DNA of 64,000 nucleotides, taken from Chryseosolibacter indicum. Its GTDB lineage: Bacteria > Bacteroidota > Bacteroidia > Cytophagales > Cyclobacteriaceae. The DNA lies in the NCBI RefSeq assembly GCF_018598585.1, contig NZ_JAHESD010000027.1:1-64000 (forward strand), in the 5' to 3' direction. Made by a program: the position numbers and the translations under genes. This document shows, piece by piece, positions 37,842 through 43,571 of the stretch (positions are counted from its first letter, which is position 1; every line of letters starts with the position of its first letter). The notes under the pieces are model-generated. The model did not search any database and had not been told where the DNA came from. It saw nothing but the letters and a program-made list of their open reading frames with translations.

Positions 37842-37869
37842 TAACCTATTAAAAAATTTATCTATATTG
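37842..37869 (+). promoter_or_regulatory. Candidate promoter of the aspartic protease gene
   Basis: TTTG at 37842-37845, 17 bases, then TATATTG at 37863-37869, near the TTTG ... TAnnTTTG consensus. It overlaps a TTG that would otherwise serve as an upstream start, which supports ATG 37888 as the true start. Confidence 0.4.
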
Positions 37870-37887
37870 AGTGGTGTGTCAGACATT

Positions 37888-39120
37888 ATGACTCGCCTAT
37901 ACACTTTTCTAATAGTAATCATTTTTGCTTGCACCAAAGGCTTTTCGCAGGTGCTCGGTTTTTCTTTGGCGGAAGGAAGAACTAAGGTTCAAATACCAAT
38001 TGAGATTAATAACAATCTCGTTGTAGTCCCGATAGTTTTAAATGGTGCCCTACCTCTTAAATTCATTCTTGATACGGGCGTACGAACAGCAATTCTCACA
38101 CAGAAAACCTTTAGTGACATTTTAAATCTCTCTTACTCGAGAAAGTACAGTATCGCAGGCCCTGGAGGAATAAAGGTTGTTGATGCTTATATAACGAATA
38201 ATGTTTCTCTTGAACTTCCTGGTGTACTTGGCAGGGGCCATGCACTCTTAGTTCTTGATCAGGACTACCTGGAGCTCAGAAATTACCTGGGCACAGACGT
38301 GCATGGAATTTTGGGTTATGAGTTATTCAGCAGGTTTATTGTTAAAATCGATTATGAAAAAAAGATTTTAACATTAATGCTTCCGGAAAGATTTAAGCCG
38401 AACAAGAAGTATCAAGCGTTGCCTATTCGTATTGAAGATACAAAACCTTACCTCACCACGCCGGTAATATTGGCTGATGGAACCCAACTGACAGCAAAGC
38501 TTCTGGTAGATTCAGGCGCAAGCCATGGCCTTATGCTCGATCCCGCATCAGATTCAAGAATTTCTGTTCCGGAAAATACAGTGAGCAGTGTAATTGGAAG
38601 AGGTCTGGGCGGAGAAATAACTGGCAGGGTAGGCAGAATAGATAGACTCATACTTGGCAACTTACAACTCCACGGACCCATTACAAATTTCCCTGATCCC
38701 AATAGCTACTTCGATAGTTTAAAAGTGGGCTCAGCCCAAAGAAACGGAGCGATTGGAGGTGAAGTCCTTAGCCGTTTTACCGTTGTCTTTAATTTTCCTA
38801 AGGAACAAATTTACCTCAAGAAAAATAGTGCCTTTAAAAAGGACTTCCATTACAATTTAAGCGGAATAACAATTAAAGCTAAAGGATCTCGATTAAATGT
38901 ATTTGAAGTAACAGAAGTCAGAAGACAATCGGTTTCTGATAAAGCTGGGGTTGCCTCTGGTGATATTATTCTTACTGTAAATGGAATTTCTGCATCCGTG
39001 CTTACACTAAATCTTATCAATGGATTTTTTAACAACAAACCCGGAAAGAAAATCAAACTTTTGATCGAACGGAACGGTGTAAAAATTCGTAAAGAATTTA
39101 GACTTGAAGATCAGATTTAA
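37888..39120 (+). CDS. Secreted retropepsin-like aspartic protease with C-terminal PDZ domain
   Basis: A 410-residue protein. The signal peptide ends near KGFSQ. Two aspartic-protease half-domains carry the catalytic motifs FILDTGVRTAIL and LLVDSGASHGLML; each holds Asp-Ser/Thr-Gly and they would pair inside one chain. The C-terminal ~90 residues form a PDZ domain (DKAGVASGDIILTVNGISA). Bacteroidota have many of these periplasmic aspartyl proteases, whose substrates are unknown. It faces the receiver-like gene and overlaps its end by 4 bp. Confidence 0.85.
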   Translation: MTRLYTFLIVIIFACTKGFSQVLGFSLAEGRTKVQIPIEINNNLVVVPIVLNGALPLKFILDTGVRTAILTQKTFSDILNLSYSRKYSIAGPGGIKVVDAYITNNVSLELPGVLGRGHALLVLDQDYLELRNYLGTDVHGILGYELFSRFIVKIDYEKKILTLMLPERFKPNKKYQALPIRIEDTKPYLTTPVILADGTQLTAKLLVDSGASHGLMLDPASDSRISVPENTVSSVIGRGLGGEITGRVGRIDRLILGNLQLHGPITNFPDPNSYFDSLKVGSAQRNGAIGGEVLSRFTVVFNFPKEQIYLKKNSAFKKDFHYNLSGITIKAKGSRLNVFEVTEVRRQSVSDKAGVASGDIILTVNGISASVLTLNLINGFFNNKPGKKIKLLIERNGVKIRKEFRLEDQI

Positions 39121-39587
39121 GAGAATGCCAGTAATGATTTCTTTCTTTTTTGATAGGCTTGAATCAAATATTGCTGTGCTCGCCTAACATGAAGAGAATT
39201 GCGTAATGCGCTGTGTAACACTTCTGCTGAAAGATTATTCTTTAGTAGATAATCTAGAATGCCAGATGCACCAAAAGACTCCTGGTAGTTCGAATTTTTC
39301 AAAACCGTAATAGGTACGTCTTTTGTTTTATTACTCTGAGAAAGAGCCTGAATAGTTTGTGATAATTCTGCTTTACCAATATTATCATCAATTAAAATAA
39401 AATTAGGCTTGAAGCGAATCAAGCGGTCTAATATGCTTTTAACATCAAAAGCGATTTCTGTTACTATCTTTTTCGTTCTAATCTGCTTAAGCTTTGTAAG
39501 TACTCCGCTCATTTCTATCGGATTATTGCCTATAAGCAAAACATGAAGTGGCTCAGCACTTTTCGGAATTGTAAACTTTGTATTCAT
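39117..39587 (-). CDS. Orphan response-regulator-receiver-like protein
   Basis: A 156-residue CheY-like fold without an output domain: HVLLIGNNPIEMSGVLTKL (strand 1), NFILIDDN with a possible phospho-acceptor Asp, VPITVLKN with the conserved Lys at strand 5. The acidic pair expected after strand 1 is replaced by Asn-Asn (GNNP), so phosphorylation may be impaired. The C-terminal ~30 residues are helical and basic. No kinase gene is nearby. Divergent from the FAD-dependent gene of the polyketide locus. Confidence 0.6.
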   Translation of the reverse strand: MNTKFTIPKSAEPLHVLLIGNNPIEMSGVLTKLKQIRTKKIVTEIAFDVKSILDRLIRFKPNFILIDDNIGKAELSQTIQALSQSNKTKDVPITVLKNSNYQESFGASGILDYLLKNNLSAEVLHSALRNSLHVRRAQQYLIQAYQKRKKSLLAFS

Positions 39588-39709: not shown

Positions 39710-40819
39710 TTGAAGAACATCGCAATCGTAGGTGGAGGTTTAGCGGGTCTTGTTTCAGGTATCCAGTTAGCAAAAAAAGGAGTGCCATGTGCAATTTTTG
39801 AGCGGAAGGATTACCCTATAAACCGCGTTTGCGGAGAATACATTAGTAACGAAACGCTTTCTTTTTTAAAACAAAATAATTTATACCCCGAAAATTTTAA
39901 TCCTCCGCAAATTTCTTTTTTGCAACTATCATCTGTTAGTGGACATTCTGCCACAATGCTGCTTGACCTCGGTGGCTTTGGTATAAGCAGATACGCTTTT
40001 GATCATTTTTTATACAAAAAAGCCGTGGAGGCTGGTGTAAAGATTCACACAAATACTGAGGTATTAGATGTAGTTTACAACAACACTAAGTTTAACATTG
40101 AGCTCGAATCTTCAACACACAGTGCTAATCTTGTAATTGGCACATTTGGCAAGCGATCACGGCTGGATACACAACTCAGGAGAAAGCACCTAACGCGAAG
40201 GTCTCCCTATGTTGGAATAAAATATCATGTTAAGAGTAATCATCCTGAAAATGTAATAGCACTTCACAATTTTTCTGGGGGGTATTGTGGCGTAGTAAAT
40301 GTTGAGAATGGTATTACAAACATATGTTACCTTGTTCATCGTGATGTAGTAAGAAGGTTTAAGAACATCTCAGAAATGGAAAAGCATGTTCTTTTTAAAA
40401 ATCCAAATTTAGAGAAACTATTTAAGGAGGCGGTTTTTACAGATAACAAACCCCTTGTGATAAATGAAATTTCATTTGCGACGAAAGGGCCTGTTGAACA
40501 CCATATGCTGTTGGCGGGTGATGCTGCAGGTATGATAACACCACTGTGTGGCAATGGTATGGCTATGGCAATTCGTAGTGGGAAGTTGATTAGTGAAATC
40601 TCTTTTAAATTTTGTGAGGATAAAATAACAAGAGACAAGCTCGAGACTGATTACAGAAAAGCATGGTCTAAATTGTTTTCACAACGGCTTATGTTAGGAA
40701 GAATAGTGCAGAAATTATTCGGTAACTCTTTCACATCTGATTTTGCTGTGAAGCTTATGCTTCACTCTTCTTCAATAGCCCAATTAATTGTTAGGAATAC
40801 ACATGGCAAACCGTTTTAA
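39710..40819 (+). CDS. FAD-dependent oxidoreductase of the polyketide locus (geranylgeranyl reductase/UbiH-like)
   Basis: A 369-residue flavoprotein. IAIVGGGLAGLVSGIQLAKKG (split by a typical Rossmann turn) begins at residue 4. VCGEYIS follows the first helix, as in geranylgeranyl reductase-type enzymes, and LLAGDAAGMITPLCGNGMAMA is the second FAD motif. The start is TTG at 39710, placing the Rossmann motif at the N-terminus. In phenolic-lipid pathways flavoproteins of this kind hydroxylate the ring; alternatively it could saturate a prenyl chain. It is convergent with the UbiA-type gene and lies beside the type III PKS. Confidence 0.82.
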   Translation: MKNIAIVGGGLAGLVSGIQLAKKGVPCAIFERKDYPINRVCGEYISNETLSFLKQNNLYPENFNPPQISFLQLSSVSGHSATMLLDLGGFGISRYAFDHFLYKKAVEAGVKIHTNTEVLDVVYNNTKFNIELESSTHSANLVIGTFGKRSRLDTQLRRKHLTRRSPYVGIKYHVKSNHPENVIALHNFSGGYCGVVNVENGITNICYLVHRDVVRRFKNISEMEKHVLFKNPNLEKLFKEAVFTDNKPLVINEISFATKGPVEHHMLLAGDAAGMITPLCGNGMAMAIRSGKLISEISFKFCEDKITRDKLETDYRKAWSKLFSQRLMLGRIVQKLFGNSFTSDFAVKLMLHSSSIAQLIVRNTHGKPF

Positions 40820-40824
40820 TGTTA

Positions 40825-41715
40825 TTACAAAAACTGGTGTACTTGGGTAGTATTAAAAAAGAGGTAAAGAAAAAAAAGATTAAGACAAGTTGCTGAAATA
40901 TAGTTAAGCGCCATTGTGCGGCCATAGTCAGCGTTGTTTTTATTCCTCAAGACGAGCATCAGCCAGTAGAAAAAATACAATAGCACGGGTAAAACTGCCA
41001 TAAGAAAAATCATAGCGTACTTACTCGAAAAGTATAGATTTAAGTAAAGTAGAAAGCAAGAGAGAGCAACACCAAAAACGATGATAGAAAAATAAAATGT
41101 TCCTTTAACTCCAAGCTTTAAACTTATTGTAGTGTCTCCCCTTTTACTATCTTCCTCATGTTGATACACTTGTGTTAAGGGATAGTTGGCCCAAAGCATT
41201 AAAGACGTTAATATGCCCGGTATGATTACGTTAGGTCTTAAAGCTATAGAAATAGGGAAGTCATTCACGCCAACATAACACATGAGAAATGTAAATAACC
41301 CCTGAAAGATGCCGGTGATAACAAGACTTGTAAAGGCATATTTTTTTAATCTTATAGATGGATGACTATAAGCTTTAGATACTAGTCCATAAATTAATAA
41401 CATCACAGCAAAAGTTAAGTTTAACTTCAGATAACCTAAAATTATTGCTAAAGCATCAAGTAAAAGAGAAAGATAGTAAAGACCTGTTTTGGTAGGGGGA
41501 GGATTCTTGAGGCCGCCTATGCTTTTTTCGTCCTTATCAAAATAACTGTTGTAACCGTTGCTTGCAGGGTAAAGAAGAAAATGAATGATAAAAAAGACCC
41601 AAAACAATCTTAACTCATTTAGATTAGGAGAAATAGAAAGCGAGAATAGAAATATTGGTAATAGAAAAAAGGAAAAAGGAATGCGGAGATGGAGTAAAGA
41701 AGACTTTGAAAACAT
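40825..41715 (-). CDS. UbiA-family prenyltransferase
   Basis: A 296-residue protein with eight to nine membrane helices. The first Asp-rich motif reads NGYNSYFDKDEKS and the second QHEEDSKRGDTT, corresponding to the NxxxDxxxD and DxxxD metal-diphosphate sites of UbiA enzymes. These transfer a prenyl chain to an aromatic acceptor or quinone. Its gene is divergent from the type III PKS (47 bp between starts) and ends 5 bp from the FAD gene. The acceptor is inferred to be the polyketide product. Confidence 0.82.
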   Translation of the reverse strand: MFSKSSLLHLRIPFSFFLLPIFLFSLSISPNLNELRLFWVFFIIHFLLYPASNGYNSYFDKDEKSIGGLKNPPPTKTGLYYLSLLLDALAIILGYLKLNLTFAVMLLIYGLVSKAYSHPSIRLKKYAFTSLVITGIFQGLFTFLMCYVGVNDFPISIALRPNVIIPGILTSLMLWANYPLTQVYQHEEDSKRGDTTISLKLGVKGTFYFSIIVFGVALSCFLLYLNLYFSSKYAMIFLMAVLPVLLYFFYWLMLVLRNKNNADYGRTMALNYISATCLNLFFLYLFFNTTQVHQFL

Positions 41716-41762
41716 ATTTAAACTTTAAAACAAGTTAGTAGTTTTTCTTATAATTGATACGA

Positions 41763-42860
41763 ATGAGTTTAATAACAGCTATCGCTACGGCAACGCCCGA
41801 TAATAAATTTACACAGTCAGTCATCGCTGATTTTATGCTTCGTAAAATGACGCTGCATAACGGGGATAGCAGAAAGCTTAAAACAATATTTAAGTTAAGT
41901 GGAATATCGTACAGGCATTCAGTATTATCCGATTATGGTAAATCGGATAATTTTGAATTTTATCCTGAGGATGGAAATGCGATTTTCCCAACCACGCAGA
42001 ATAGATTAGATACATTTAGGGCGCAGGCTCTTCCACTAAGTTTACTGGCTATTGAAAAGTTATGGACTAGCGCTACGGTATCAGCAAAAGAAATTACCCA
42101 TCTGATTGTTGTAAGCTGTACGGGAATGTATGCCCCTGGTTTAGATATAGATATTGTACAGCACGCCGCATTGAACACAACAGTGCATCGTACTGCAATA
42201 ACATTTATGGGATGTTACGCTGCATTCAATGCTTTAAAAATTGGTGATGCTTTTTGCAAGAGTAACCCCAAGGCAAAGGTGTTGATTGTATGCACCGAGC
42301 TTTGCAGTATACATTTTCAAAGAGGAGCATCAGAAGACAACTTAATCGCGAATGCATTATTTGCGGATGGTTCTGCAGCCCTTATTATGGAGAGTGAAAC
42401 CACCAGCAAACTACAACTGGAGGTTGAGGGATTTCACAGTGATCTTGCGCCTAAGGGTAGTAATGACATGGCGTGGAATATCGGCGATTTCGGTTTCGAA
42501 ATGAAATTATCTGCATATGTTCCTGATATCATTCAGGGTGGTATTGCAGCATTAACACAGACGCTTCTTAGAAGTTTATCTATCAGCTTTTCAGATATTA
42601 AACACTTTGCGATACATCCGGGAGGAAAAAAAATACTTGAAGCTATAGAAAAGGAACTGGGAATAACAAAGGAGCAAAATAGGGCGGCTTATCATGTGCT
42701 GGAGAATTACGGAAATATGTCGTCTCCAACAGTGCTATTTGTATTAGAAGAATTGATCAATCGCTTGGCGCGGAATAATAAAGGTGAAAATATTTTGAGC
42801 TTTGCCTTTGGTCCTGGTCTTACGCTTGAAAGTATGATCTTAAAGATTAATTCGATTTAA
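41763..42860 (+). CDS. Type III polyketide synthase
   Basis: A 365-residue chalcone/alkylresorcinol synthase-type ketosynthase. The catalytic triad is complete: Cys119 in VVSCTGMYAPG, His285 in FAIHPGGKK, and Asn318 in ENYGNMSSPT. Such enzymes extend an acyl-CoA starter with malonyl-CoA and cyclise the chain to alkylresorcinols, alkylpyrones or related phenolic lipids. The ATG at 41763 is chosen; a TTG three codons earlier is possible. It is followed after 3 bp by the methyltransferase. Starter and ring type cannot be told from sequence. Confidence 0.92.
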   Translation: MSLITAIATATPDNKFTQSVIADFMLRKMTLHNGDSRKLKTIFKLSGISYRHSVLSDYGKSDNFEFYPEDGNAIFPTTQNRLDTFRAQALPLSLLAIEKLWTSATVSAKEITHLIVVSCTGMYAPGLDIDIVQHAALNTTVHRTAITFMGCYAAFNALKIGDAFCKSNPKAKVLIVCTELCSIHFQRGASEDNLIANALFADGSAALIMESETTSKLQLEVEGFHSDLAPKGSNDMAWNIGDFGFEMKLSAYVPDIIQGGIAALTQTLLRSLSISFSDIKHFAIHPGGKKILEAIEKELGITKEQNRAAYHVLENYGNMSSPTVLFVLEELINRLARNNKGENILSFAFGPGLTLESMILKINSI

Positions 42861-42863
42861 AGT

Positions 42864-43571
42864 ATGCCTGACTTTTCCCAGCGTTCTTACGAGGAAGAAA
42901 TTATGGATGACCTGGGTGCTTCAGGTGCAATAATTGATGTTACGTTAAAAGAGCTTGAAACAATCAACCTTTTGCTCGGTGGTAATTACGTAACGGTAAA
43001 CGGTGTAAACACTTTAATAAAGAATATTGATAGAACAAGAAAATTAAGCATTGTCGACTTAGGCTGCGGCAGTGGAGATATTCTCAGGTTGATAAGAAAA
43101 TCTCTTAATAAGAGGCAAATCAATGCAGATTTAATAGGCGTTGATGCCAATCCAAATATTATTGCTTATGCAAAAAAACACAATGCAAAAGAATCAGGAA
43201 TTCATTTTGAAGCACTTAATATTTTTTCAGAAGAATTTAAGACCAGACAGTTTGATATAGTTACCGCTACTTTATTCTTCCATCATTTTACCAACGACCA
43301 ACTCATCAGCTTCTTTGCTCAGTTAAAAAACCAGGTTCGCATAGGCATTGTAATCAACGACATTCACAGGCACTGGTTTGCCTACTATTCAATAAAATGG
43401 CTTACAAAGCTGTTCTCTAAGTCCACCATGGTTATTAACGATGCTCCTCTTTCGGTAATGCGCGCCTTTAAAAAGGTTGAATTGGAGAATATCCTCCAAA
43501 ATGCGGGAATTAAAAACTATAAAATTAAATGGATGTGGGCTTTTAGGTGGCAAATAATTATTTCTATTTAA
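42864..43571 (+). CDS. Class I SAM-dependent methyltransferase of the polyketide locus
   Basis: A 235-residue enzyme. Motif I is IVDLGCGSGDIL (about residue 60-71), followed by LIGVDANPNIIAYA and FDIVTATLFFHHF, so the class I SAM fold is clear. It begins 3 bp after the PKS gene and is surely co-transcribed with it. It probably methylates a hydroxyl or ring carbon of the polyketide. Confidence 0.88.
   Translation: MPDFSQRSYEEEIMDDLGASGAIIDVTLKELETINLLLGGNYVTVNGVNTLIKNIDRTRKLSIVDLGCGSGDILRLIRKSLNKRQINADLIGVDANPNIIAYAKKHNAKESGIHFEALNIFSEEFKTRQFDIVTATLFFHHFTNDQLISFFAQLKNQVRIGIVINDIHRHWFAYYSIKWLTKLFSKSTMVINDAPLSVMRAFKKVELENILQNAGIKNYKIKWMWAFRWQIIISI

Follow-up and report, generated by a model that had tools for sequence, protein, structure and literature searches.

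A four-gene type III polyketide synthase locus of Chryseosolibacter indicum and a candidate pathway to a prenylated phenolic lipid

The genome of Chryseosolibacter indicum (NCBI RefSeq assembly GCF_018598585.1; 5.8 Mb in 183 contigs) contains a compact locus in which genes for a flavin adenine dinucleotide (FAD)-dependent flavoprotein, a UbiA-superfamily protein, a type III polyketide synthase (PKS) and a methyltransferase lie together. The locus occupies positions 39710–43571 of the window, that is, of the whole 64,000-nucleotide stretch that was analysed (contig NZ_JAHESD010000027.1, positions 1 to 64,000). That the four genes work together, as a preliminary description of this DNA had proposed, is well supported by their co-occurrence in genome samples of the order and the phylum. 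On balance, they would form one pathway to an alkylresorcinol-derived membrane phenolic lipid with an alkyl and a prenyl tail. By analogy with described systems, the most likely product is a prenylated, hydroxylated and methylated alkylresorcinol, i.e., a hydroquinone lipid, which would be similar in kind to the agq lipids and would be built around a hidABC-like core trio of enzymes.

Gene content and joint retention

The place and family given for each gene in the preliminary description were borne out by the open reading frames (ORFs) and by a Pfam search, in which all four proteins exceed the cut-offs. The features are as follows.

39710–40819, plus strand: FAD-dependent oxidoreductase, 369 amino acids, TTG start; a likely ring hydroxylase acting on a polyketide phenol (PF01494)
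40825–41715, minus strand: predicted UbiA-superfamily membrane prenyltransferase, 296 amino acids, with the clade-specific motifs NSYFDKD and QHEED (PF01040 and fold model)
41716–41762, no strand: divergent stretch of 47 bases from the UbiA start codon to the PKS ATG (sequence)
41754–42860, plus strand: type III PKS, 368 amino acids from TTG, with ATG 41763 as the likely start (PF00195, PF02797 and fold model)
42864–43571, plus strand: class I S-adenosylmethionine (SAM)-dependent methyltransferase, 235 amino acids (PF13649)

The arrangement had likewise been described correctly. The methyltransferase ATG lies 3 bp past the PKS stop codon, the UbiA and PKS genes are divergent, and the stop codons of the flavoprotein and UbiA genes converge, 5 bp apart.

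The preliminary description had suggested a search for the same set in relatives and had named its never occurring together as the outcome that would speak against a joint function. In a sample of 59 genomes of the order, two of them from the same genus, all four genes were found in 35 genomes and none of them in 15. The PKS, counted at E 1e-30 or better, is present in 43 genomes, the UbiA protein in 41, the flavoprotein in 42 and the methyltransferase in 38. With kinship ignored in all three Fisher tests, the UbiA protein is encoded in 41 of the 43 PKS genomes and none of the 16 others (p 1.4e-12), the flavoprotein in 42 and none (p 1.5e-13), and the methyltransferase in 37 and one (p 1.9e-8). 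The two PKS genomes that lack the UbiA protein are labelled G006 and G034. In 27 genomes the UbiA gene lies within 2 kb of the PKS gene; the pair is divergent in 25 of them and shares a strand in the other 2. In another 14 of the 41 it is unlinked to the PKS yet kept, either more than 40 kb away (5 genomes) or on another contig (9 genomes, for which the true distance is not given). That the genes are retained together even when unlinked is the best argument that they share a pathway.

The same association is seen across the phylum. In a sample of 296 genomes, the UbiA protein was found in 47 (E threshold 1e-20), the PKS in 135 (1e-30), the flavoprotein in 63 (1e-40) and the methyltransferase in 102 (1e-25). 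A PKS is present in all 47 genomes with the UbiA protein, all 63 with the flavoprotein and 101 of the 102 with the methyltransferase, and the co-occurrence of UbiA and PKS has a Fisher p of 4.9e-19, again with kinship ignored. Where the UbiA match is strong (21 genomes), all encode the flavoprotein and 20 encode the methyltransferase. The other 26 UbiA genomes all belong to one family, f41, in which the UbiA match is weaker and lies on another contig or more than 600 kb from the PKS. All five f41 UbiA proteins that were examined keep NSxxDKD and QxxxD, and at each of the three f41 PKS loci examined the PKS and methyltransferase are followed by a divergent flavoprotein. Five genomes of two other families (G091, G122, G183, G206 and G308) carry a one-strand series of UbiA, PKS, methyltransferase and flavoprotein.

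A scan of named genomes was also made from the UbiA side, covering the flanks of the best 80 of 579 relatives. With a profile that was built from PKS-linked UbiA proteins and so favours linked cases, and with some flanks ending with the contig, all four genes were found at 60 of these 80 loci, PKS, methyltransferase and UbiA at 12, flavoprotein, PKS and UbiA at one, flavoprotein and UbiA at three, and UbiA alone at four; a PKS lies within the flanks of 73. When the ORFs of 44 neighbourhoods were clustered, the PKS recurred in 44, the methyltransferase in 30, the UbiA protein in 25 and the flavoprotein in 22, followed by groups of 13 and below; no fifth partner gene was seen by this clustering at the distances covered.

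Neutral synteny, in which the genes would be neighbours by descent without a common pathway, is largely refuted by these data and has become very improbable. Genes flanking the cluster are indeed also kept in near relatives, namely an aspartyl-protease/PDZ gene (37867–39120; 13 of 44 neighbourhoods) and a small response-regulator-like gene (39117–39587; 10 of 44), both recurring less often than the four cluster genes. However, the flanking genes fade with distance, whereas the four are retained in at least three arrangements and when unlinked. Chance clustering was likewise rejected, as was simple synteny.

Two contigs of metagenome-assembled genomes (MAGs) named Candidatus Anammoxibacter (L121 and L125) carry a Bacteroidota-type four-gene cluster with UbiA at 56–57% identity. 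These are possibly misbinned Bacteroidota contigs.

The polyketide synthase and its lineages

The PKS matches PF00195 at 98 bits and PF02797 at 91.7 bits, against a cut-off of 27 for each. Its structural model (predicted local distance difference test, pLDDT, 94.2) has the type III PKS fold, with a Z score of 50.0 to 4b0n and a root-mean-square deviation (rmsd) of 2.0 over 364 residues. Counted from TTG 41754, the catalytic triad is C154, H288 and N321, equivalent to residues 151, 285 and 318 from ATG 41763; this ATG is the likelier start because the family profile match begins there. The triad is invariant in 39 aligned rows (alignment A1: the window and 38 of 43 PKS loci, with L047, L052, L062, L065 and L074 left out) and in 55 of 55 rows of the window's PKS lineage. 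The preliminary description was therefore right to report a complete triad, with His285 and Asn318 numbered from the ATG, but its nucleophile, Cys119, has to be replaced by Cys154 (151). Cys119 is C122 of a VSCTG motif and is itself conserved, but it is C154 that aligns with the cysteine of FMGC in Pks18.

The relationships of the enzyme were examined in a PKS tree of 62 rows that has several long branches and a bootstrap that had not settled (0.987); a further alignment, A6, holds the window and 49 of 70 full-length PKS sequences. The window's lineage of 55 rows corresponds to the 62 less G006, G079, G021b and the Streptomyces, Methylobacterium, Paludisphaera and Deinococcus enzymes, with Psychrobacter included, and this set was chosen with the tree in view. 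Where the tree marks Psychrobacter, Deinococcus, Methylobacterium, Paludisphaera and Streptomyces as lacking UbiA, the marking draws on plasmid records only. All 55 rows have A127, C184, H187 and W241, and the PKSs of Paludisphaera, Deinococcus and Methylobacterium share A, C, H and W at these positions. The tree groups G006 with the type found in family f25 (flavoprotein, methyltransferase and PKS in this gene order, without UbiA), which is a different PKS lineage. Consequently, G034 is the sole UbiA-less order genome among the 42 that have a PKS of the window's lineage.

Both enzymes of this second Bacteroidota lineage that were examined (L178/G079, which is the f25 enzyme, and L073/G006) have I127, P184, T187 and F241, residues from which it would appear that the lineage probably uses another starter or makes another product. 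On a plasmid of the gammaproteobacterial Psychrobacter urativorans (L155, NZ_CP012711.1), a PKS 50% identical to that of the window is accompanied by a flavoprotein and a methyltransferase. The tree places this PKS within the Bacteroidota lineage, which suggests a transfer out of Bacteroidota. The PKS reading frame of MAG UBA2338 (L103:6856–7950) is split in two, reflecting either an assembly error or a decayed gene.

The prenyltransferase and the tailoring enzymes

The UbiA protein matches PF01040 at 69.4 bits (cut-off 34.2). Its model (pLDDT 94.1) gives a Z score of 22.8 to A. fulgidus UbiA with dimethylallyl diphosphate and Mg (4tq4; rmsd 3.6 over 274 residues) and of 21.9 to A. pernix UbiA (4od5). 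The superfamily assignment stands because of this profile and fold, not because of the first motif. N56, S57, D60, D62, Q185 and D189 are invariant in 26 rows (alignment A2: the window and 25 of 26 UbiA loci, the partial L061 left out) and likewise in the 59 rows of A5, which holds the window and 58 of 79 full-length proteins. A tblastn search of 72,556 plasmid records found no match to the protein at E 1e-3.

The source genome has six UbiA-superfamily genes, and a strong match to the clade profile is confined to the one in the cluster (E 9e-140, against 2e-4 for the next). This bears on the possibility that the UbiA protein serves another pathway and is merely co-inherited, in which case the lipid would be an unprenylated, hierridin-like phenol. 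The core trio of PKS, methyltransferase and flavoprotein does occur without this UbiA in other groups. In contrast, the UbiA protein was never found without a PKS in the 41 order and 47 phylum genomes that encode it, though it is often unlinked, and the source genome has five further UbiA-superfamily genes, four of them with an NxxxD first motif. Co-inheritance of this kind is thus improbable, and prenylation of the polyketide phenol is the preferred reading.

The flavoprotein matches PF01494 (FAD_binding_3) at 48.1 bits, against a cut-off of 22, and G8, G10, G13, C41-G42-E43-Y44 and G270-D271 are invariant in 22 rows. For every one of the 25 families listed for it (of 64), its score falls short of the curated cut-off. 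The best of these is GG-red-SF, where it reaches 102.2 bits against the 158.8 of TIGR02032, and the UbiH equivalog TIGR01984 gives 43.1 against 392.2. The earlier label "geranylgeranyl reductase/UbiH-like" accordingly holds only as a loose likeness, with both family cut-offs missed.

On sequence comparison, ring hydroxylation is a likelier activity of the flavoprotein than prenyl or geranylgeranyl reduction. Hydroxylation is favoured because homologous trios occur without this UbiA, both within the phylum (42 of 296 genomes) and on plasmids of other phyla. In the Paludisphaera, Psychrobacter and Methylobacterium plasmid loci, the window-family profiles match adjacent PKS, methyltransferase and flavoprotein genes, with no match to the UbiA profile there. 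In Deinococcus, the same place is filled by a flavoprotein whose best scores are to monooxygenase models, though short of their cut-offs, and this too favours ring hydroxylation over reduction of a prenyl chain. Alternatively, the flavoprotein would be of the geranylgeranyl reductase type and saturate the prenyl tail added by the UbiA protein; this reading is compatible with the overall pathway but unlikely. It would agree with GG-red-SF as the best curated family, although the score is below the cut-off, and with the dihydrogeranyl group that the agq lipids bear by name. It would also agree with genomes in which the two genes stay close without the PKS. In G040, the flavoprotein (547640–548749) and UbiA (551963–552823) genes lie close to each other (about 3 kb) but a long way from the PKS, and at three of the best 80 of 579 loci (L088, L089 and L101) UbiA lies near a flavoprotein with no PKS within the flank examined. 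Such cases are hinting at a direct link between UbiA and flavoprotein.

The methyltransferase matches PF13649 at 54.9 bits. Its nearest curated model is PRK06202 (NF004851), at 129 bits against a cut-off of 243, and NF004851 is also the best model for the methyltransferases at the four plasmid loci of other phyla (Paludisphaera, Psychrobacter, Methylobacterium and Deinococcus). For the flavoprotein and the methyltransferase, alignments A3 and A4 hold the window with 21 of 21 and 29 of 29 sequences, respectively.

Related systems and the proposed pathway

The srsABC genes of Streptomyces griseus combine a PKS, a methyltransferase and a flavin hydroxylase and are not known to include a UbiA enzyme. 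The preliminary description had drawn on them for comparison, and the likeness in these three classes holds, but the nearest systems are hidABC and the planctomycete trio, while agq adds a membrane prenyltransferase. In the agq cluster of Actinoplanes missouriensis, agqB to agqD are presumably a methyltransferase, a flavin monooxygenase and a UbiA-like enzyme. With agqB to agqD so assumed, agq and the window both combine a type III PKS, a methyltransferase, a flavin enzyme and a UbiA-like enzyme, a likeness in class-level composition only. It is drawn from class descriptions, and the two systems belong to different phyla. The one actinomycete locus examined, the Streptomyces PKS locus L185, has no match to the UbiA, flavoprotein or methyltransferase profiles.

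For srsABC, oxidation to alkylquinones is described (PMC10896814). The agq cluster is assigned alkyl-O-dihydrogeranyl-methoxyhydroquinones (PMC7692728, PMC4044012, PMC10896814). AgqA produces alkylresorcinols, and their prenylation and hydroxylation follow (PMC10896814). The small polyketide receives its prenyl group on oxygen from a membrane prenyltransferase (PMC4044012), and orthologues of agqA to agqD occur together in Phytohabitans (PMC7692728).

The hidABC genes of the hierridins in cyanobacteria are a trio of PKS, methyltransferase and FAD oxidoreductase (PMC8086630), and a planctomycete operon of methyltransferase, flavoprotein and PKS comprises the same three enzyme classes (PMC10896814). 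In C. glutamicum, the PKSs of the planctomycete operon made pentadecyl- or heptadecylresorcinols, and addition of the Gimesia methyltransferase and flavoprotein resulted in one methylation, probably on carbon (PMC10896814). The window shares this trio, a homologous trio exists in Paludisphaera, and A127, C184, H187 and W241 of the PKS are common to the Paludisphaera enzyme. The resorcinols made by this operon type (PMC10896814), together with the common C184, H187 and W241, thus lend support to a resorcinol pathway in the window. In contrast to the window, where UbiA sits between the flavoprotein and PKS genes, the usual hidABC and planctomycete clusters have no UbiA; one hid-like cluster with a prenyltransferase is described from Raphidiopsis mediterranea (PMC8086630). 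The one-strand orders of the hid-type trio (methyltransferase, flavoprotein, PKS, or PKS, methyltransferase, flavoprotein) also differ from the convergent and divergent pairs of the window, and the latter of these orders is present in G122, G206 and G179.

The loseolamycin locus of Micromonospora endolithica resembles the window in having UbiA, methyltransferase and type III PKS genes close together (PMC7587189). Unlike the window, it has an acyl-CoA dehydrogenase gene between those of the methyltransferase and the PKS, and no flavin hydroxylase is among its 25 listed genes; the products named are alkylresorcinols (PMC7587189). A search of titles and abstract openings, with subscription journals and preprints left out, found no account of the four-gene pathway in Bacteroidota, and the available sections of PMC11225308 refer to type III PKS loci of Marivirga solely by their antiSMASH class.

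From its family and some of its active-site residues, the PKS would load a fatty acyl starter, probably a long-chain one, add malonyl units and close the chain by aldol condensation to a 5-alkylresorcinol. By comparison with the hid, planctomycete and agq relatives, the flavoprotein would hydroxylate the ring and the methyltransferase would methylate it on oxygen or carbon. The membrane UbiA enzyme, going by its family and fold, would prenylate the ring on oxygen or carbon. The end product would be a membrane phenolic lipid with one alkyl tail and one prenyl tail. Of the two products suggested in the preliminary description, the prenylated phenolic lipid fits best, and no feature pointing specifically to a chromanol was found.

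Several observations weigh against this pathway. At the level of genomes, the methyltransferase is absent from 6 of the 43 PKS genomes of the order, G050 has the PKS and UbiA without flavoprotein and methyltransferase, G034 has the PKS, methyltransferase and flavoprotein without UbiA, and the co-occurrence tests do not remove shared ancestry. At the level of the PKS, the best solved-structure sequence match is Pks18 (E 1.2e-49), a pyrone synthase (PMC6274091). One of the seven Pks18 tunnel residues named in PMC6274091 is kept (Cys205 as C184), the changes from Pks18 to the window being Ala52 to I24, Ser143 to C122, Asn208 to H187, Ala209 to F188, His221 to N200 and Leu266 to W241. An earlier view that the long acyl tunnel of Pks18 is conserved in the window was weakened on this re-check. 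The length of the starter consequently rests on kinship with the planctomycete enzymes rather than on a Pks18-like tunnel; the Paludisphaera PKS, which is of the planctomycete type, also differs from Pks18 at most of the named residues.

The tunnel comparison slightly lowers the resorcinol reading and slightly raises a rival in which the PKS makes an alkylpyrone and the tailoring enzymes act on the pyrone. Pks18 as the best-scoring solved sequence and the nearness of both Pks11 and Pks18 to the PKS model in the fold comparison are in favour of this rival. It is opposed by W241, present in all 55 lineage rows and in Paludisphaera, where Pks18 has Leu266. W241 and, in Pks18, Leu266 both precede the catalytic His by 47 residues; W241 would correspond to Trp281 of ArsB, an equivalence obtained by counting back from that His and hence a further weak point of the pathway. 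At the ArsB position, Trp favours resorcinols and Gly favours pyrones (PMC6274091). Taken with this qualification, a pyrone product is rather unlikely, and the resorcinol is preferred.

The remaining points concern the metal site of the UbiA protein. The full NDxxDxxxD motif is replaced by NSYFDKDEK, in which N56 and D60 are kept and D62 is present but the last D is replaced (position 64 is D in 3 of 26 rows). The full DxxxD motif is likewise replaced by QHEED, with Q185 for the first D and with D189 kept. Since two classical metal positions are replaced, the donor or the reaction of the enzyme could differ. Chlorophyll synthase has NDFYDRDID and SVEGD at the same sites, so that the first D of the second motif is absent there as well. 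An interpretation of the motif changes as the mark of a non-prenylating enzyme was found too weak, given chlorophyll synthase without the same Asp and the full UbiA fold of the model. According to sequence and model, the window UbiA represents a distinct clade with an altered metal site and is probably an active prenyltransferase.

At its broadest, the finding may concern the membranes of a whole order. As a speculative and doubtful extension, a two-tailed (alkyl and prenyl) hydroquinone or quinone would be a near-core membrane lipid of Cytophagales, serving alongside menaquinone in redox transport or in protection of the envelope, and the UbiA protein would be a new subfamily whose rebuilt metal site (NSxxDxD, QxxxD) is specific to alkylphenol acceptors. 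The four-gene pathway would link the hid and agq chemistries and would add a clade of membrane prenyltransferases whose metal motif is unusual. The retention of PKS and UbiA in 41 of the 59 order genomes, even where the genes are scattered, points to a product of steady value to these bacteria.

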